Positions 38,225-63,190 of a DNA stretch of 64,000 bases are shown piece by piece (position 1 is the stretch's first letter; every line of letters starts with the position of its first letter). Below the pieces are notes generated by a model. The model was not told the origin of the DNA, did not search any database, and saw nothing but the letters and a program-made list of their open reading frames with translations. The translations under genes were made by a program, and so were the position numbers. This DNA is from Phycisphaeraceae bacterium. GTDB lineage: Bacteria; Planctomycetota; Phycisphaerae; Phycisphaerales; Phycisphaeraceae. The stretch lies in contig PBAS01000051.1 of the NCBI GenBank assembly GCA_002716625.1, forward strand, positions 1 to 64,000. The letters run 5' to 3'.

Positions 38225-39058
38225 ATGAATCAAGTTGTCGCAACTAAGATCAAACACCTTGAACACTGGTTCAACCATTTCGAGTCGATCCTGATTGCCT
38301 ACTCTGGCGGTGTCGATAGTGCTTTGGTCATGACAATAGCACACCGCCAGCTCCACGAGAAGGCATTAGCATGTATCGGCGTCTCTCCCAGTTACCCCCA
38401 TCGCGAAAAAGAGCAAGCCATCACTATGGCTAAGGAACTTGGCATTCCCTACCGCCTGATCGAAACAAGTGAATACTCTGATCCTAATTACACGGCGAAT
38501 CCCAGTAATCGCTGTTATTTCTGTAAAACCGAATTATTCAACCAACTTCAACGGGTCGCAGACAAAGAGGGATGGCAAGTAATCGTTGATGGCACCAATG
38601 CCGATGACACCAGTGATGATCGGGCGGGCATAAAAGCCGCTCACGAATACGGTATCCGCTCTCCATTGCTTGAGGTAGATATCAGCAAGGAGCAGGTACG
38701 AGCCATTGCGCATCCACTAAAAATCCCGGCATGGGATAAACCCGCAATGGCCTGTCTTTCCTCCCGTGTCCCACACGGCGTACCCATCACTCCCACCCTG
38801 TTACGCCAGATTGAACTGGCCGAAGACAGCCTTGCCGAAAAAGGATTCAAACAGTTTCGAGTACGTCACCATGGTGATTTGGCCCGCATCGAAGTACCCC
38901 AGGAAGATTTCCTGCGTGCCCATGACCTTCGATCAGACATCGTGGCAGGTTTGCGCAAAGTTGGCTATCGCCACGTCTGCCTGGACCTTGCTGGCTTTCG
39001 ATCTACACCATCAACGGATCTTGATGTGGTCTCGGTTACCGTGAAGGGAAAGACATGA
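38225..39058 (+). CDS. larE: ATP-dependent sulfur transferase LarE
   Basis: A 277-residue PP-loop enzyme that adenylates and then sulfurates the pincer precursor. The PP-loop SGGVDS is at residues 27-32. C177 in ACLSSR aligns with the sulfur-donating Cys176 of the Lactiplantibacillus enzyme. C97 and C100 (NRCYFC) are also present. The third Cys expected in the iron-sulfur type of LarE is not seen after C177, so the sacrificial-Cys mechanism looks more likely; this is inference. The stop overlaps the larC start (ATGA). Confidence 0.93.
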   Translation: MNQVVATKIKHLEHWFNHFESILIAYSGGVDSALVMTIAHRQLHEKALACIGVSPSYPHREKEQAITMAKELGIPYRLIETSEYSDPNYTANPSNRCYFCKTELFNQLQRVADKEGWQVIVDGTNADDTSDDRAGIKAAHEYGIRSPLLEVDISKEQVRAIAHPLKIPAWDKPAMACLSSRVPHGVPITPTLLRQIELAEDSLAEKGFKQFRVRHHGDLARIEVPQEDFLRAHDLRSDIVAGLRKVGYRHVCLDLAGFRSTPSTDLDVVSVTVKGKT

Positions 39059-40230
39059 TTGGTTACCTTGACCTGCCATCGGGTCTATCAGGCGACATGA
39101 TGCTGGGATGTCTTGTGGACGCTGGATGGTCAATTAATCAACTAGATCATATGCTTTCGACACTTGGGATTGCACAGACAGGCTGCCAAGTTAATTCTCG
39201 GTCGGTCATGAAGGGTCCTCTTCGCGCCACAAAGGTAGATATTAAAACACCTCATCAACATGTCCACCGGAATTTAGAAGACATTCATCAGATCATCGAC
39301 AAAGCCGACCTTCCGGCGGTTGTCCAAAAACGTGTCTTAGGTGTTTTCACGCGCTTGGCACATGCGGAAGCAAAAGTACATGGAATGGGCGTAGACCAAA
39401 TCCACTTCCATGAAGTCGGTGGACTGGATGCAATCATTGACATTGTCGGCTGCGTCCTTGGCTTGCACGAACTGAACATCGACCGCCTATACGCATCACC
39501 ACCAATGTTAGGCGCCGGGTGGACCAAGAGCATGCACGGACCGATACCACTGCCGGCACCGGCAACACTTGAGTTGCTTGCCGCCGTGTCCGCACCAACG
39601 AGGGTGGCTGGCGATACATCTAGCGGAGAGTTGCTGACGCCGACTGGTGCCGCATTACTGGCAGAACTAACAACTTTTGAACAGCCTGCAATGCAACTGG
39701 GACGAATTGCAATCGGGGCGGGATCGCGTGACACCGAGATGCCGAACATTGCACGTTTATGGCTTGGTGAAATCTTTGAAAATGGACCCATGATTCAGAT
39801 CGAGACTAATATCGATGACATGAACCCGCAGCACTACGCCTCGGTAAGCGATCGTTTATTGACCGCTGGTGCCCGTGATGTATGGCTCACACCCGTACAG
39901 ATGAAGAAGGGTCGGCCGGCCGTTGTTTTGAGTGTACTGGCAGCCCAGGAACACGAGCAAGTTCTGGTTGACTTGATAATGCGCCAGACAACCACCCTTG
40001 GCGTACGGGTTGTCCCGATCCGCCGGCACGAAGCAGTACGTGAAGAATCTTCCGTCGAAACGCCCTACGGTTCAGTACGAACCAAACTAAAATGGATCGA
40101 TGGCCAAATTATTGCAGCAGGACCCGAATATGATGATTGCCTTGCGATAGCGGATAACCTTGGAATTGGTGTCCGGCAAGTCTATGAAGCGGCTTTAACA
40201 GCAGCCCACAAAAGATTTCAGTTGGCTTGA
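39055..40230 (+). CDS. larC: Nickel insertase LarC
   Basis: A 391-residue LarC (DUF111), the CTP-dependent cyclometallase that inserts nickel into the pincer nucleotide. Typical text: DLPSGLSGDMMLGCL at the start, QIHFHEVGGLDAIIDIVG, and the C-terminal IETNIDDMNPQHY and TLGVRVVPIRRHE. In L. plantarum the gene is split and read through by frameshift; here it is one continuous frame. It overlaps larE by four bases and larA by four. Confidence 0.95.
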   Translation: MIGYLDLPSGLSGDMMLGCLVDAGWSINQLDHMLSTLGIAQTGCQVNSRSVMKGPLRATKVDIKTPHQHVHRNLEDIHQIIDKADLPAVVQKRVLGVFTRLAHAEAKVHGMGVDQIHFHEVGGLDAIIDIVGCVLGLHELNIDRLYASPPMLGAGWTKSMHGPIPLPAPATLELLAAVSAPTRVAGDTSSGELLTPTGAALLAELTTFEQPAMQLGRIAIGAGSRDTEMPNIARLWLGEIFENGPMIQIETNIDDMNPQHYASVSDRLLTAGARDVWLTPVQMKKGRPAVVLSVLAAQEHEQVLVDLIMRQTTTLGVRVVPIRRHEAVREESSVETPYGSVRTKLKWIDGQIIAAGPEYDDCLAIADNLGIGVRQVYEAALTAAHKRFQLA

Positions 40231-41594
40231 CAGAGTTAAACCTTATGAACATCACACGAGACCGATCCAAAGTTAGATTGCTTTACGGTCGCAAAGATCT
40301 ATGCATTTCAGTACCCCGGACGGCAACTACACTCACCAGTAAATCCGTCTCGCCACTGGCAAACCCAAACTCAGCTATTCGCAAAGCCTTGAATGCCCCC
40401 ATTGGCACCGCCCCGCTTGCAGAACTGGTTCGACGCAGACGGCCCAAACAGGTGGCAATCACGATCAGCGATATTACACGACCTGTGCCAAATGAACTCA
40501 TTGTAAAACCACTGCTGGATGTACTTCATGCAGCAGGAATCCGGGATGAACAGGTCGTCATCGTTATCGGCACGGGCATGCACCGTCCAAGCACATCACA
40601 AGAGCGTACCGAAATGCTTGGTGTTGACCTGCTAGAACGGTGTGAAGTGATCGATCATTGCGGCGATGATCCTGGTGGGCTTATACAAGTCAGCCAGGAC
40701 CCGCCCGTCTCAATTAATCAACGATTTGCAGAGGCTGATTTCCGGATCGTCACCGGGCTCATTGAACCGCACTTCATGGCTGGATTTTCCGGCGGACGCA
40801 AAGGGGTGTGCCCGGCCTTGGCGGACTGTACAACCGTGCAGCGATTTCACAGCTTTCCAGTCTTGGCTGATCCGAAAAGCAGAACTGGCCTGCTGGATGG
40901 CAATCCCTGCCACACCGAGTCGCTTCGTGTGGCCCGGTTGGTTGGCGTAGACTTTCTTGTCAACGTAGCAATTGATCGAGACCGGGAATTGGCCGGTATT
41001 TATTGTGGCGATCTTGAAAAGGCTCACCTAGTCGGCACTGAACAGGTTGGCAGGTGGAATTCGGTGCAGATTGATCGGACTTACGATCTGATTATCACCC
41101 ACGGTGGTGGTTACCCACTAGACCAAACTTTCTACCAAAGTGTTAAGGGTATCGTGACGCCACTACCTGCTATGCATGACCAGACAACCGTGCTCATCAC
41201 CAGTCACTGTGGCGAAGGAATTGGATCACCACCCTACACAAAGACCATGATGCAGTGGGGGCAGGATTGGCGTGGTTTTATTCAAGCAATATCCACCTCG
41301 CATCATGTGGTGAAGGATCAATGGCAATACCAAATGCACGCTCGAGTATTGTCCAAGATCGGGGTGGAACAACTTCGATTTATAACTGATCAGATTGACA
41401 CCAATACATTAAAGCAACTCGCCGTCAATCCAGTCCTAGGCGAAAAACCAGTTGAACAGCGTTGTCAGCAATTCATCGACAATTTTATTGCTGAGCACCC
41501 ATCGGCTTCCATTGCAGTTTTTCCGGAAGGCCCCTACACCTATCCATTGTCCCTTGGTTTTCTCAATAGCACACCCGAAAGCAGTGCGGCGTGA
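40227..41594 (+). CDS. larA: LarA-family nickel-pincer racemase/epimerase
   Basis: A 455-residue LarA homologue. With the TTG start that overlaps the larC stop (TTGA), the active-site residues are H119 (GTGMHRP), H182 and K192 (EPHFMAGFSGGRK), H208 (RFHSF), and D82/R85 (SDITRP). Their spacing agrees with H108, H174, K184, H200 and D72/R75 of lactate racemase: K192 would carry the pincer adduct. An ATG at 40245 is a possible later start. LarA homologues racemise or epimerise various 2-hydroxyacids, so lactate cannot be assumed. It is preceded by its maturation genes and followed by an AKR-like gene. Confidence 0.92.
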   Translation: MTELNLMNITRDRSKVRLLYGRKDLCISVPRTATTLTSKSVSPLANPNSAIRKALNAPIGTAPLAELVRRRRPKQVAITISDITRPVPNELIVKPLLDVLHAAGIRDEQVVIVIGTGMHRPSTSQERTEMLGVDLLERCEVIDHCGDDPGGLIQVSQDPPVSINQRFAEADFRIVTGLIEPHFMAGFSGGRKGVCPALADCTTVQRFHSFPVLADPKSRTGLLDGNPCHTESLRVARLVGVDFLVNVAIDRDRELAGIYCGDLEKAHLVGTEQVGRWNSVQIDRTYDLIITHGGGYPLDQTFYQSVKGIVTPLPAMHDQTTVLITSHCGEGIGSPPYTKTMMQWGQDWRGFIQAISTSHHVVKDQWQYQMHARVLSKIGVEQLRFITDQIDTNTLKQLAVNPVLGEKPVEQRCQQFIDNFIAEHPSASIAVFPEGPYTYPLSLGFLNSTPESSAA

Positions 41595-44542: not shown

Positions 44543-44831
44543 TCAACAGGTATCCATGCTGTCGTGTAGGCCACCTGCCCAACAGCGCGGATCAAGAAGA
44601 GGAAGTGTGGTGATTGGCCTGCGGAATCGACCCTTGATCGATTAGGATTAGACACACCATGTCTGTTCATGCAGGGCTAAAATTCCACCGCGGACGCGCC
44701 GCCGTAATGGACTAGCCTTTTCATAAAAAAGGCGGCGGGTGACTGATCATGCCACTGTCAGGTCTGCAACGGACCTAACGGGAAGGCAGTCAACCCAGCA
44801 AAAGCCCTAAGCCGGAAGACCTGCCTGTTGA
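44543..44831 (+). ncRNA. Cobalamin riboswitch
   Basis: All main parts of a btuB-type cobalamin riboswitch are visible. P1 is a perfect eight-base helix, TCAACAGG (44543-44550) with CCTGTTGA (44824-44831). The B12 box AAGCCGGAAGACCTGCC is at 44809-44825, GGGAAGG at 44780-44786 and CACTGTC before it. The J/P3-P5 core AATTCCACCGCGGACGCGCC runs into GCCGT at 44681-44705. Between the AAGAGGAAG stretch (about 44597) and that core is an unusually long insert with short hairpins. The strands of P3 and P4 are not fully assigned by eye. B12 binding normally represses the downstream gene, here a PEP-CTERM protein. Confidence 0.87.
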
Positions 44832-44918
44832 GACCGACACGTGTCCTCGCGAAACGGGGCGCAGCCGGCTCGACTGTTCAATTCTTATAGAACAGCACCC
44901 GATCAAGCTGCTTGACCT

Positions 44919-44940
44919 ATTTCGTCAGGACGAAATTATT
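44919..44940 (+). terminator. Possible riboswitch expression-platform hairpin
   Basis: ATTTCGTC (44919-44926) and GACGAAAT (44929-44936) are perfect complements. With a four-base loop, seven pairs form, followed by TATTCTTGTT. It resembles an intrinsic terminator, but the T tract is interrupted and the stem is AT-rich, so it may instead be a pausing or alternative element of the riboswitch. Confidence 0.4.
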
Positions 44941-44958
44941 CTTGTTCGATGGAGAAAC

Positions 44959-44984
44959 ACTCTGCGCGAATCAGAGTATGGAGG
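44959..44984 (+). promoter_or_regulatory. Hairpin abutting a strong ribosome-binding site
   Basis: ACTCTG (44959-44964) pairs with CAGAGT (44972-44977), and the GGAGG site (44980-44984) follows two bases later, six bases before the ATG at 44991. A helix so close to the ribosome site suggests translational control as the riboswitch output. Confidence 0.45.
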
Positions 44985-44990
44985 TAAACG

Positions 44991-45989
44991 ATGGGTAAGG
45001 CGAATCAAGTATGGGCAGGAATATTAGCGGTAAGTATCTATCTGTCAGCGGTGCATATTGCAGTTGCAGCCCCGGTGGTTCTTCTCGATGAAACATTTGG
45101 TGATGATCCAATTTTACAGTTGCGAGCTTCGGTAGTTGATGACCGGGCACCTGATTCACGGTTCAGCCATTCAGCCCAAGATGGTTCACTGACCACCTTC
45201 TATCACTCGGGACTACCAACCACAAAACTTCGATGGCCTTTGCCACGGACTCTTCATGAACATGACAGCTTTTCAATGATGGTCAGCTATAAGATCGTCA
45301 ATGACATCCATTATGCGGCGGACAATACGGGCGGTTTGTCCCAGATTTCCTTTGGACTGGAAAACAGCATGACCACGGGGTCCAACCGAACCGGAAGCCT
45401 TGATTCAGGATATGCCAGCGACACCTATGACCTGATCTCATTGGATTACTTTCCAACAAATCATCCTGACTTTGATACGGTCACTCTTACCCCCACGGTG
45501 ATTGCCAGCCAGGGATTGAACAGTCAGGATGCTTTCCATGGATTCTTTGCCCCATTTGGATCCGAAAGTGTCATCACCGAACCGCGTGAGGTTGGCATAC
45601 TCGATTTAGATACAACATACACGGTCACAATGGATCATGATGGCTCGACCGGACAAGTCACCGTCACTTTATCCGATCCAGCTGGACCAGTTGTTATCAA
45701 CCAACGTGGTCTGAGTGGCGTCATCGGGGGGGGGGACGGAGACATATTCACCATCCAGCATGATCTACAAGCCGAATTCTCAGTCGATGTATTCTCACTG
45801 CTGTTATGGGCTGACGGCTTTGATACTCAATTCAGCAATGCAGGTGCACACTCGCTAATTGCTAACGTTGCATTCAAGCATATAAAGGTTGCCTTGGTAC
45901 CGGAACCAGCCAGTCTTGGACTTGCAATAGGCTTGGCAATAATCCTGCTCTACAACAGAGCGGGCAGACAGCAAAAAACGTGTGTGTAA
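44991..45989 (+). CDS. PEP-CTERM secreted protein under cobalamin riboswitch
   Basis: A 332-residue exported protein. It has an N-terminal Sec signal (VWAGILAVSIYLSAVHIAVA, cleavage after VAA) and, at the C-terminus, VPEPASLG, a hydrophobic helix and a basic end (NRAGRQQK), the PEP-CTERM sorting signal recognised by exosortase. The body is beta-rich with few Cys and resembles extracellular adhesin or lectin-like domains, but I cannot assign a family. A G run (45727-45734) is in frame. It is the first gene after the cobalamin riboswitch, so it is presumably made when B12 is scarce. The prepilin-like gene follows 40 bases after its stop. Confidence 0.85.
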   Translation: MGKANQVWAGILAVSIYLSAVHIAVAAPVVLLDETFGDDPILQLRASVVDDRAPDSRFSHSAQDGSLTTFYHSGLPTTKLRWPLPRTLHEHDSFSMMVSYKIVNDIHYAADNTGGLSQISFGLENSMTTGSNRTGSLDSGYASDTYDLISLDYFPTNHPDFDTVTLTPTVIASQGLNSQDAFHGFFAPFGSESVITEPREVGILDLDTTYTVTMDHDGSTGQVTVTLSDPAGPVVINQRGLSGVIGGGDGDIFTIQHDLQAEFSVDVFSLLLWADGFDTQFSNAGAHSLIANVAFKHIKVALVPEPASLGLAIGLAIILLYNRAGRQQKTCV

Positions 45990-46029
45990 CTGTATCACAT
46001 GTGCTAATGGCTTCAGATTGGACCCTCCC

Positions 46030-46776
46030 GTGAAGTATCGAGCAAAGGCATTCACACTGATCGAATTAATGGTTTCCGTTACGATCGTCACCCTACTGAT
46101 AGGCCTGCTCCTTTCGGCAGTTGGTGCCGCTCAGCGTAACGGACAACGAGCTACCTGCCTTAGCAATCTGCACCAGGCGGGGCTCGCCACCTCCATGTAT
46201 CTGGCTGAATACAAGGGACAGTTCTGGCGATACTTTTCTACCATCCCTGATGGGCGATTATGGTGGTTTGGCTACGAACCAAATGGCCCCGGCCATGGTA
46301 CCGGACGTTCACTAGATACCAATCGTGGTGTTTTAAGTGCATACCTTCAAGCCGCCGGCGGTGAACTACAGTGCCCGACTTTCCCTTATGACGACCCGCA
46401 GTTTTATGCCAAGTTTGACCGTCGAGCAGCCAGCTATGGCTACAACCTCAAACTGGGCTCAGCAAGCCAGTCACGAGACCCCAGGCATCTCGATCATTTC
46501 ATGGGCCGTGCCCATCGTGTGGTTGTCTTTGCCGATGCGATCCACTTCGATCATAACCCCGGCTTCAACGAAGGGCATTACATTACGATCAACCCCAATG
46601 TCCGCGTACGATCTGGCTATGCTCATTTTCGCCATGACCTGATGGCGCATGTGCTGATGGTCGATGGCCATGTTGAATCGCAGACTCATCAAGGGCAATA
46701 CCATCGCGAAATAGCCGGCGGTCTGGCAGCAAACCTCAGGTCACCTGATGGTTCTGATGCGATCTACGGCAACTGA
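46030..46776 (+). CDS. Prepilin-like protein with H-X9-DG motif
   Basis: About 248 residues from a GTG at 46030; the frame opens at 45982, overlapping the PEP-CTERM gene. The type IV pilin/pseudopilin signal AKAFTLIELMVSVTIVTLLI is perfect, with prepilin peptidase cleavage before Phe and Glu at position five. The C-terminal region has the H-X9-DG motif (H, nine residues, then DG in DLMAHVLMVDGH) seen in the large planctomycete prepilin-processing-associated family (DUF1559-like). These proteins are thought to be surface or secretion components. It is probably co-transcribed with the PEP-CTERM gene and so also under B12 control. Confidence 0.85.
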   Translation: MKYRAKAFTLIELMVSVTIVTLLIGLLLSAVGAAQRNGQRATCLSNLHQAGLATSMYLAEYKGQFWRYFSTIPDGRLWWFGYEPNGPGHGTGRSLDTNRGVLSAYLQAAGGELQCPTFPYDDPQFYAKFDRRAASYGYNLKLGSASQSRDPRHLDHFMGRAHRVVVFADAIHFDHNPGFNEGHYITINPNVRVRSGYAHFRHDLMAHVLMVDGHVESQTHQGQYHREIAGGLAANLRSPDGSDAIYGN

Positions 46777-59399: not shown

Positions 59400-60455
59400 A
59401 TGCATCAGAACACCCATACCGTAGAGTCAATGACCAGTAGACAACGTGTTCTGGCAGCTTTAAGGCGCGATCCAGTCGACCGCACACCTGTATGCAACCC
59501 CACGTCCGTTGCAACGGTTGAATTGATGGATCTGGTCGACGCTCACTTTCCGGAAGCCAACCGGGACCCGCACAAAATGGCCCGCTTGGCCGCAACAAGC
59601 CATACGGAACTTGGCTTTGACACCGTGATGCCGGTTTTCAGCATCATCCAGGAGTCGTCTGCGCTTGGCTGTAAGATCCAATGGGAGGGAAAAGATAACT
59701 GGCCAACTGTAAAGATGAATGAACCCATCTGGTTAGAACCCGAGGACATTGCGATCCCTGATAATTTGTGCACCCATCCCGACACCAAGTGTGTACTTGA
59801 TGCGATCAGGATACTCCGCAAGGAGTTCGGTGATGACGTTGCCATCATCGGCAAGACCATGGGGCCATGGTCAATGGGATATCACTGTATGGGTGTTGAA
59901 AGATTTCTATTGATGTCCTTGGATGATCCAGACAAGACACGCCGCTGTCTGGACAAATTCAAGGAGTCGACCATCCTGTTTGGCCAAGCCCAGATCGATG
60001 CTGGCGCCGATGCCCTGACCCTTCCGGACCATGCAACCGGCGATCTGGTGAGCGGCGAATACTACGAACGTTACCTGCGGGACATGCACATTGAGTTCAC
60101 CGAGGAACTGAAGATTCCACTCATATTGCATATCTGCGGTAAGACGGAAGACCGGATGGAATACATCTCGCAGACCGGGATGGCTGCTTTTCACTACGAT
60201 TCAAAGAACAACCCCTGCAACTCGATGGATATCTGCAACCACCGAATCTCGCTTGTGGGCAACATCAATAATCCGCAAACGCTTTATTCAAAGGGACCGG
60301 AGGAGGTCCATGCAGAAGTGAAAGAAAATCTAGAAGCTGGAGTTCAACTAGTCGGACCCGAGTGTGCCATTCCACTGCAAACCTCAATTGAAAACTTAAA
60401 AGCAATTCCAGCAGCTGTCCGTGAATGGCACAAGGAACAGGCAGCACGTAATTAA
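59400..60455 (+). CDS. MtaA-like corrinoid methyltransferase (URO-D family)
   Basis: A 351-residue URO-D superfamily methyltransferase. GAGG stands five bases before the ATG. The zinc site of the MtaA/MtbA type is intact: H244 and C246 in LILHICGK and C322 in VGPECAIP. These enzymes move a methyl group between a thiol or substrate oxygen and a corrinoid protein. The corrinoid protein is encoded next. With MTHFR at the end of the operon, the acceptor is likely tetrahydrofolate, or this protein is the substrate-side methyltransferase; the two cannot be told apart from sequence. Confidence 0.88.
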   Translation: MHQNTHTVESMTSRQRVLAALRRDPVDRTPVCNPTSVATVELMDLVDAHFPEANRDPHKMARLAATSHTELGFDTVMPVFSIIQESSALGCKIQWEGKDNWPTVKMNEPIWLEPEDIAIPDNLCTHPDTKCVLDAIRILRKEFGDDVAIIGKTMGPWSMGYHCMGVERFLLMSLDDPDKTRRCLDKFKESTILFGQAQIDAGADALTLPDHATGDLVSGEYYERYLRDMHIEFTEELKIPLILHICGKTEDRMEYISQTGMAAFHYDSKNNPCNSMDICNHRISLVGNINNPQTLYSKGPEEVHAEVKENLEAGVQLVGPECAIPLQTSIENLKAIPAAVREWHKEQAARN

Positions 60456-60491
60456 CCCATAACCTTAAAGGCAATAGATGGAGTATTTTTA

Positions 60492-61247
60492 ATGGCCGAA
60501 CTTAGTGATATTGCAAATGAATTCGCCCGTGGAGAAATTGATGAGTTCATCGAGAACGAAGATGAGCGTAAGGAGATCATTGACCTCTACGCCGCCGCCT
60601 CACCTGATATGCAGGATATCGCGGCCACGGTGCTTGAGGGTGATAATGATAAATCTGATGAGTTGACCAAGCAGGCGCTCGATAATGGCGTCACAGCGCT
60701 AACGGTCATGGACGATGGTTTGATTGCAGGAATGGCCATCGTCGGCATCAAATTTCGAGAGAATTTCATCTTCGTACCTGAGGTACTTGCTTGCGCCCGC
60801 GCCATGAAAGCCGGGATGGCTCATATCGAACCGATTCTCTCAGCGTCAGGGGTTGAGCCTATCGGCAGGGTCCTCATGGGCACCGTCAAGGGCGATCTAC
60901 ACGACATCGGCAAGAACCTGTGCATCATGATGCTGCGTGGTGCCGGATTTGTCGTTATTGATCTTGGTGTTGACACATCTCCTGATGATTTTCTTGAAGC
61001 AGTGGACAAGGAAAACGCCAACCTGATCGGCATGTCAGCTCTACTCACGACCACAATGCCCAACATGGGGAAAACAATTGAACTGTTCATCGATGAAGAC
61101 AAGCGGGATGACGTGAAATTCATGGTTGGAGGCGCCCCGGTAACCCCTGAGTTCGCTGACGACATGGGCGCTGACGCCTATGGTGATAGTGCAGTTGAGT
61201 GCGTGGAAGTAGCCAAGTCGCTGTTGAAAAAGAATGCATCCGCCTGA
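60492..61247 (+). CDS. Methyl-accepting corrinoid protein
   Basis: A 251-residue cobalamin-binding protein like MtaC, MtbC or MttC. The N-terminal helical cap covers residues 1-120. The Rossmann domain has D135-L-H137-D-I-G140, with H137 as the lower axial cobalt ligand, and the downstream NLIGMSALLTTTMPNM and FMVGGAPVT loops. A GGAG site is eight bases before the start. It carries the methyl group in the Co(I)/methyl-Co(III) cycle between the neighbouring methyltransferase and the acceptor step. The first 45 residues are an unusually acidic extension. Confidence 0.94.
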   Translation: MAELSDIANEFARGEIDEFIENEDERKEIIDLYAAASPDMQDIAATVLEGDNDKSDELTKQALDNGVTALTVMDDGLIAGMAIVGIKFRENFIFVPEVLACARAMKAGMAHIEPILSASGVEPIGRVLMGTVKGDLHDIGKNLCIMMLRGAGFVVIDLGVDTSPDDFLEAVDKENANLIGMSALLTTTMPNMGKTIELFIDEDKRDDVKFMVGGAPVTPEFADDMGADAYGDSAVECVEVAKSLLKKNASA

Positions 61248-61261
61248 TTAAAGAATCACCC

Positions 61262-63190
61262 ATGGAACGCATTAACAAAGATGAGTACGCAAAGCGTATT
61301 GACCGGATCACGAATATTTTTTCAAAGATCGCAGTCCATGCTGATACACAGGCGCAGATACGTTGTCCTTATAAAAACAGATTCGACCAATGTACCGCCA
61401 AGTTTGGCTGCCAAAACAAGCGAAAACCACATACTCCAGGAGAACTACCGGGATGCGCCAGTGATGACAAACTTGACTATCGCACCGCATGGGAAAGTGA
61501 ACCAGAAAGCTATATGAAGGTTAAGAAACAGATCAAGACTGCATCAGCCACCAGATCGCGCAGCAAACCAACACGATGTGTCATGCATGATGGTGAAAGC
61601 CGCCCTTCCGAGGTTGGCAAGACTATGTTTGACTACGCAGATGAATTAAGTGTCCGTGTCCCGACATCTTGTGGCCGTACGGGGCATTGCCACGAATGTA
61701 TTGTCGAAATCAAGAATGGCGGTGACGCCCTGTCACCACGCGCCGAATCCGAGGCTTTCCTGTCCGGGGATTACCGCTTGGCATGCCAGGCGGTTGTCGA
61801 AAAGACCGACCAGGATATTGAGTTCACTGTCCTCCGTCGATCACCCCAGATTTTGACTTCGGCAGTTCTTGGTAAAACACAACTCGATCCAGTAGTCACG
61901 CGAGAATCAGATCATGTTTTGTACGATGGCAAGGTGGTAGACGAGTATCGTGGTGGAATTTACGGATTATCCGTAGACTTGGGCACCACGACGATGGTAG
62001 CGGAACTGGTAGACCTTGAATCAGGCAAGTCGGTCTACACCACCGCATTGGAAAACCCACAACGATTTGGTGGCAGTGATGTAATGTACCGCATCAGTTA
62101 CGATCGGGATGAATTTCATGGCGAACTGCACCGCGCTATCATTACCACAATGAACTCAGAAATCCGGCAGATGTGCCGCGACTTGGATATCAATCGGCGG
62201 CAGATTTATGAGCTTGTCATTGTGGGCAACTCGACAATGCGTGACTTGTTTTTTGATTTAGATGTGCAACCCATCGGTCAAAAACCTTACAAGTCAACCA
62301 TCGAGGAGGAATATCTTGAGGGCAAGCGAGAATCAACGTCACTCAATTACGCCACACGTAAGCTTGGACTTTGGGCAAACAAGAATGCCCGTGTATACGG
62401 TGCTCCGCTAATTGCAAGTCACGTGGGCGGCGACATTGTAGCTGACCTACTAGCAATTGACGTCGAATCCCATGACGAAGTAATGATGCTTGTTGATGCC
62501 GGCACAAACACCGAGGTCGTCATCGGCCATAAAGACCGCTTGATTGCTGCCTCCTGTCCAGCAGGACCAGCTTTTGAAGGTGGACTTGTGACATACGGCA
62601 TGCCGGGGTGTGACGGTGCCATTGAGTCCATCCGTTGGCAAGATGGCGAGTTTAAATACAAAACAATTGGCGATAGTGACCCACGTGGTTTATGTGGATC
62701 AGGCCTCATTGACCTGCTGGCCGAACTTCGCCGCCATAACCTGATGACACCCAAGGGCGTGTTTGCTGATAAGGCAACCCAGTTCACTATTGCACCAAAC
62801 CAGGGAATTACATTTTCGCGTAGGGATGCAAGTGAATTGGCGCAAGCCAAAGCAGCCAATTATTGCGGCCAGATCATCCTGATGCGCAAGTTTGGAGTTA
62901 CGCCTGACCAGATCGGGGCGCTCTACCTAGCTGGAGGTTTTGCTAATTACGTTGATCCGGCCAGTGCAATTGACATCGGATTTCTTGCCCCGGTTCCAAC
63001 TGACCGAATAAAAAAGATTGGCAATGGAGCATCAGAAGGTGCACGCCAAATGCTGCTCTCGGGCACAAAACGTCGATCGATCGAAGAACGAATCAAGACC
63101 ATTGAGCACATTGAATTGGAAACAATGGAAGATTTCTTTGATGTCTTCGTCGAAGGCTGCCAGATGAAACCGATGCAGATCCCTCACTAA
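61262..63190 (+). CDS. RACo-like ASKHA-domain corrinoid reactivase
   Basis: About 642 residues from the ATG at 61262. A [2Fe-2S] ferredoxin domain with CGRTGHCHEC and a later Cys (LACQ) is followed by the ASKHA ATPase fold: LSVDLGTTTMVAELVD, VIVGNSTM and DAGTNTEVVIG. The C-terminal domain is of the DUF4445/RACo type. RACo reduces inactive Co(II) to Co(I) using ATP. The N-terminal 100 residues are extra to the usual layout and hold a Cys cluster (RCPYKNRFDQCTAKFGC, then GC) that may bind a second cluster or zinc. Confidence 0.9.
   Translation: MERINKDEYAKRIDRITNIFSKIAVHADTQAQIRCPYKNRFDQCTAKFGCQNKRKPHTPGELPGCASDDKLDYRTAWESEPESYMKVKKQIKTASATRSRSKPTRCVMHDGESRPSEVGKTMFDYADELSVRVPTSCGRTGHCHECIVEIKNGGDALSPRAESEAFLSGDYRLACQAVVEKTDQDIEFTVLRRSPQILTSAVLGKTQLDPVVTRESDHVLYDGKVVDEYRGGIYGLSVDLGTTTMVAELVDLESGKSVYTTALENPQRFGGSDVMYRISYDRDEFHGELHRAIITTMNSEIRQMCRDLDINRRQIYELVIVGNSTMRDLFFDLDVQPIGQKPYKSTIEEEYLEGKRESTSLNYATRKLGLWANKNARVYGAPLIASHVGGDIVADLLAIDVESHDEVMMLVDAGTNTEVVIGHKDRLIAASCPAGPAFEGGLVTYGMPGCDGAIESIRWQDGEFKYKTIGDSDPRGLCGSGLIDLLAELRRHNLMTPKGVFADKATQFTIAPNQGITFSRRDASELAQAKAANYCGQIILMRKFGVTPDQIGALYLAGGFANYVDPASAIDIGFLAPVPTDRIKKIGNGASEGARQMLLSGTKRRSIEERIKTIEHIELETMEDFFDVFVEGCQMKPMQIPH

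Follow-up and report, generated by a model that had tools for sequence, protein, structure and literature searches.

Vitamin B12 is of a size that porins do not admit, and the route given in textbooks takes it across the outer membrane through BtuB acting with TonB. The cobamide loci of Bacteroides thetaiotaomicron, which carry cobalamin riboswitches, encode BtuB together with BtuG, BtuH, BtuJ, BtuK and BtuL (PMC6143338, PMC8941943, PMC12751083). Binding of B12 by BtuH has been described, and the C-terminal ~270 residues of BtuG1 are a BtuH-type region (PMC8941943). Eight members of the DUF4465 family are also reported to bind B12, including one from Mucisphaera calidilacus (PMC13398666), a species of the class Phycisphaerae (PMC8882080).

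The locus considered here lies in a 64,000-nucleotide stretch of a Phycisphaeraceae genome (hereafter the window), and it places a cobalamin riboswitch in front of a gene for a secreted PEP-CTERM protein and a gene for an H-X9-DG pseudopilin. We propose, with a probability of roughly 0.8, that these two genes form a B12-repressed surface capture operon that stands where BtuB normally stands. The features are as follows.

44543..44842, + strand: cobalamin riboswitch aptamer (RF00174 match 44552-44842, P1 from 44543)
44843..44860, + strand: P13-like hairpin GTCCTCGCGAAACGGGGC, part of the riboswitch element (a motif found 3' of the aptamer at 52 of the parsed sites)
44916..44945, + strand: possible expression platform, TTTCGTcaggACGAAA with a T-rich stretch after it (fold and complementarity; weak)
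44991..45989, + strand: secreted PEP-CTERM protein of family F, a candidate corrinoid-binding surface protein (sequence; homologues under RF00174)
46030..46776, + strand: H-X9-DG pseudopilin of the riboswitch-linked group (reading frame open from 45982; motif models, tree)

The original prediction had recognized the riboswitch from its P1 helix, B12 box, GGGAAGG and core. These motifs were found again on re-reading, and the Rfam covariance model agrees: RF00174 matches 44552-44842 on the forward strand over all 189 model positions with 45.3 bits (gathering score 31.5, E 3.6e-08), and this is the single copy in the whole genome (3.35 Mb, 88% complete). Read from the sequence, P1 consists of eight perfect pairs between TCAACAGG (44543-44550) and CCTGTTGA (44824-44831), the core GCGGACGCGCCGCCGT occupies 44690-44705 with GGGAAGG just after it, and GCCACTG stands at 44751-44757. 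A hairpin of the form GTCCTCGCGA...GGGAC directly follows the aptamer at 52 of the parsed sites, and in the window its loop (hairpin 44843-44860) could form a kissing contact with the CGCG of the core. AGGAC of the platform (44927-44931) can pair with GTCCT of the hairpin (44843-44847), and does so in the minimum free energy fold of 44843-44990, which is unusually stable (z -3.5); the complementarity of the window platform to the hairpin has a p of 0.05, and a terminator scan found no terminator there. Across these 52 sites, the downstream complement to the hairpin beats 95% of shuffles at 17, and several relatives have clear T-runs after it. From what is known of the family, control of the window genes is likely B12-off.

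The first gene (44991-45989) is preceded by a Shine-Dalgarno sequence, GGAGG, at 44980-44984 and encodes 332 amino acids with a signal-peptide-like N-terminal segment and the C-terminal end VPEPASLGLAIGLAIILLYNRAGRQQ. By eye this tail is VPEP, a hydrophobic stretch and R, and family members have the same tail; the Pfam PEP-CTERM model gives it 13.1 bits, below the cut-off of 20.7. Exosortase is present in two copies in the window genome (E to 6.8e-52). Family F is small: a search of 301 genomes from the order gave three strong matches, all of them under RF00174, and one further member comes from a genome outside this set that is more distant, again under RF00174 with a pilin (G137, E 3e-13), so that the family sits under a cobalamin riboswitch in four of the four cases found. 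The search for relatives of the PEP-CTERM protein yielded one locus (L032), a chance peptide match in an unrelated enzyme with no riboswitch. The second gene probably begins at GTG 46030 rather than at 45982, where its frame opens, and from this start the leader MKYRAKA is followed by FTLIELM. Over 45982-46776 the N-methylation motif scores 27 bits, above the Pfam cut-off of 21.2; a literal H-X9-DG motif is present (HDLMAHVLMVDG), and TIGR04294 scores 13.6 bits against a cut-off of 19. Because the PEP-CTERM and H-X9-DG models both fall below their curated cut-offs, both names rest partly on reading of the sequence and on homologues. The pilins of G004 and G006, two genomes that share its family F partner, group with the window pilin (support 96). 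Single-sequence structure models of the two proteins were worthless (pLDDT 33 for the secreted protein, 39 for the pilin).

Organisms of this group appear to be B12 auxotrophs that rely on uptake, with B12 enzymes present and de novo corrin synthesis absent as judged by CbiC. The B12-binding domain PF02310 occurs in all 61 genomes compared and CbiC, the sole synthesis marker searched, in none of the 61. A FecCD/BtuC-type permease is found in 57 of them and exosortase in every one, and a full-length BtuB homologue in only three. The window genome has no TIGR01779 (BtuB) match at E 1e-20; as this genome is 88% complete, BtuB could sit in the missing part. The search for TonB receptors used the BtuB model only, and B12 could be carried by others. 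The one genome of good quality that lacks the pilin at E 1e-45 (G049) has BtuB under its riboswitch. On another contig of the window genome, adjacent genes encode a BtuF-like lipoprotein and a BtuC-like protein; both score below curated cut-offs and the BtuC score is hardly above that for FhuB, and their B12 specificity is uncertain. Elsewhere in the window, some 13 kb downstream from the operon, 59400-63190 holds a corrinoid-dependent methyltransferase cluster with an MtaA/MtbA-like methyltransferase, an MtgC-type corrinoid protein (60492-61247) and a RACo-like corrinoid activase (61199-63190), and neighbouring frames at 39055-41594 resemble, by eye, LarC and LarA, a nickel-cofactor protein and lactate racemase.

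The arrangement is not peculiar to one genome. RF00174 is present in 57 of the 61 genomes (the window's own and its relatives), nearly always as a single copy, and the genes downstream were read at 64 riboswitch sites in 55 genomes, two more genomes having a site near a contig end. A homologous pseudopilin follows at 56 of the 64 sites (52 genomes). At 52 of these 56 secreted proteins were identified as well, the majority of which end in a PEP-CTERM or GC-type dockerin tail. At the eight sites without a pilin, the riboswitch leads to BtuB-like receptors three times (G013, G031b, G049; TIGR01779, E to 5.7e-86), to BtuF-BtuD-BtuC once (G002b) and to a family C protein only twice, with one contig end and one site (G036a) without assignment. 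Two genomes without a called RF00174 also fit the rule. One (G003) has a sub-threshold AdoCbl-II match (L110 3715-3817; 31.7 bits, cut-off 36.5) that precedes a PEP-CTERM gene and a pilin, and the other (G027) has riboswitch motifs by eye and the exact 3' motif, with no Rfam score. The combination of riboswitch, secreted protein and pilin is thus a conserved regulon rather than the curiosity of a single genome, and the reading first made from the window is strengthened because the pairing that it described is widespread in relatives.

The secreted partners in these relatives provide the link to B12 binding. Seven are DUF4465 proteins by Pfam (E to 3.9e-55) that also match BtuJ structures, and the DUF4465 proteins of several riboswitch operons share a conserved NTP-x-Y/F loop. 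For the largest partner family the PDB gave one relative only, 8blw_B over residues 389-638 (E 1.6e-9). Judging by length and by what the papers describe, we take this 663-residue YncE-type chain to be BtuG1 (BT_1490). Some other partner families look like propellers and others have no assignment, and PDB profile searches with families C and D returned nothing meaningful. Family C, a secreted PEP-CTERM family of ~220 residues (for example L042 3492-4235) with no PDB relative, occurs at 13 riboswitch sites and is a candidate new family of B12 binders. The window protein itself has no Pfam DUF4465 match; when family F was aligned with DUF4465 (BtuJ) by hhalign, or compared by profile with the BtuH-like proteins, the sorting tail alone aligned, and a PDB profile search with the family found no relative. 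It is a candidate corrinoid binder in that its family lies under a cobalamin riboswitch in all four cases found.

Because the pilin profile was built from riboswitch-linked sequences (54 pilins), only its application to a wider sample, 139 genomes drawn from the phylum, counts as an independent test. At E 1e-40 it matched in 15 genomes outside the first set, and in nine of these (G069, G083, G115, G137, G144, G150, G154, G182, G192) a same-strand RF00174 match lies no more than 3 kb upstream of the pilin; for the other six, no cobalamin riboswitch turned up near the pilin at the loci scanned. Several operons of the sample are telling in their composition. In G115 the riboswitch is followed by a DUF4465 PEP-CTERM protein, a surface protein, the pilin, BtuF and BtuD; in G150 by BtuF (L147), BtuC, BtuD and the pilin, with overlapping stop and start; and G133 has BtuC, BtuD and the pilin. 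The presence of the pilin inside BtuF/BtuCD operons places it, by operon context, in B12 transport. In G083 and G192 (the latter by likeness to the former) the pilin is followed by a lipoprotein, a Dph6-like protein and a DUF6580-type membrane protein; the DUF6580 membrane protein and Dph6-like ATP pyrophosphatase behind the riboswitch-linked pilin (L163 825-2158, L165) are possible B12 uptake genes. The idea that corrinoid is captured at the surface with no TonB receptor in view, put forward from the window alone, gains support from the BtuJ- and BtuH-homologous partners, the operons joining pilin with BtuF/BtuCD and the rarity of BtuB.

It could be argued that the riboswitch is no more than a relic, or serves a gene farther away, and that the two genes stand behind it by chance. 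The weak expression platform of the window would suit such a history, but the gene order recurs at most of the sites read and in distant genomes of the phylum. A random site would have a ~3% chance of a same-strand pseudopilin within 4 kb (an estimate from pseudopilin counts), and we regard coincidence as very improbable. Nor do we think it probable, although the odds are less extreme, that the operon serves some end other than uptake, with cobalamin as the signal by which structures for adhesion or at the surface are repressed. PEP-CTERM proteins and pilins are often found among the components of surface or matrix, and the window protein is without similarity to known B12 binders; however, relatives fill the same slot with B12 binders of the BtuJ or BtuH type, with BtuB or with BtuFCD.

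A subtler alternative accepts that the secreted protein captures corrinoid and makes the pseudopilin a generic assembly or anchoring partner, a frequent companion of exosortase-sorted proteins in planctomycetes, with no part in transport. This we consider unlikely, if well short of far-fetched. Six genomes carry 39-94 pseudopilins each (by the pilin profile), and five of 17 sampled, riboswitch-less and unrelated pseudopilin loci in G005 have a PEP-CTERM neighbour, so the pairing of PEP-CTERM protein and pilin is not in itself specific to B12. Against a generic role, the pilins linked to a riboswitch come close to forming a single clade. On a tree that holds 66 linked, 22 unlinked and 5 unclear pilins, the label for riboswitch linkage requires 5 changes, compared with 23.5 after shuffling (none of 500 shuffles was as low). 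One weakly supported region (support 30), however, contains linked and unlinked pilins together, so that a strict single origin goes beyond what the tree says. The pilin is also kept at sites for which no PEP-CTERM protein could be named (G002a, G002c, G016 and G031a; G083, G144 and G192), and it lies directly behind BtuD in G150 and G133. As for the partners, each of families F, E, C and D is more clustered on the pilin tree than it was in all 200 shuffles; shared ancestry accounts for part of this, but three genomes (G005, G026, G057) have two operons each in which different pilin types go with different partners. Near relatives of the B12-linked pilin also occur with no riboswitch in two genomes (L099 4394-5362, L100 3898-4749), where they adjoin a gene for what by eye is a PepSY-like membrane protein, a hint of an iron-linked counterpart.

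Returning to the reading of a B12-repressed capture operon, we infer the sign of its regulation, the surface location and B12 binding of the window protein, and every mechanical step of the pilin, as follows. When corrinoid is scarce the riboswitch would permit expression of both genes, which would fall once corrinoid is bound. The first product would be exported and, once sorted by exosortase, would stay at the cell surface and capture corrinoid there. The pilin would be a substrate of prepilin peptidase, built into an assembly resembling a type IV pilus or type II secretion system and dedicated to this pathway; most likely the assembly would present the capture protein or help the ligand or the protein across the outer membrane. 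Corrinoid would then be handed to BtuF and a BtuC-type permease encoded elsewhere in the genome. More tentatively, and here we see a possibility rather than a probability, a pseudopilin-based machine might replace BtuB and TonB altogether, with a riboswitch-controlled pseudopilin dedicated to one ligand and matched to its own exosortase-sorted capture protein. If that were so, the large pseudopilin sets of planctomycetes would be parts for ligand-specific uptake.

A whole order of B12-dependent bacteria appears to be without de novo synthesis, and mostly without BtuB, yet keeps one B12 switch, and the placement of secreted proteins and a pilus-type protein under that switch, in place of BtuB, suggests an undescribed way of entry for B12. 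If our reading is true, it gives a likely ligand to one group of the many planctomycete pseudopilins of unknown role. It would also connect with the observed binding of macromolecules by fibres on planctomycete crateriform structures (PMC5394234). Since the sequence itself names the ligand, the regulator and the partners, the idea is directly testable. In the open-access papers searched we found no described pilin that is regulated by or linked to B12, and no paper that joins riboswitch, PEP-CTERM, pilin and B12; a description elsewhere is possible. The text of the DUF4465 report does not mention PEP-CTERM, exosortase, pilin or planctomyc- (PMC13398666).

The locus can be set beside several described systems. 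With the DUF4465 binders (PMC13398666) it shares the family through several of the riboswitch operons examined here, whereas the window protein is not DUF4465 by profile. With the BtuB-TonB/BtuFCD system of the Escherichia coli type it shares a BtuC-type permease and a BtuF-like lipoprotein in the window genome, but that genome gives no BtuB match and its riboswitch does not precede the transporter genes. The window pilin has the N-terminal methylation motif and the H-X9-DG of type IV pilins and type II secretion pseudopilins (TIGR04294). The closest likeness in plan is to the loci of B. thetaiotaomicron, where a cobalamin riboswitch also stands over several secreted surface proteins and whose BtuJ and BtuH-type region have homologues in the window's relatives. 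In those loci, however, the TonB receptor BtuB is the partner of the surface proteins, which are lipoproteins. In the present group the surface proteins end in PEP-CTERM or dockerin tails, BtuB is for the most part absent, and the most constant member is a pseudopilin.
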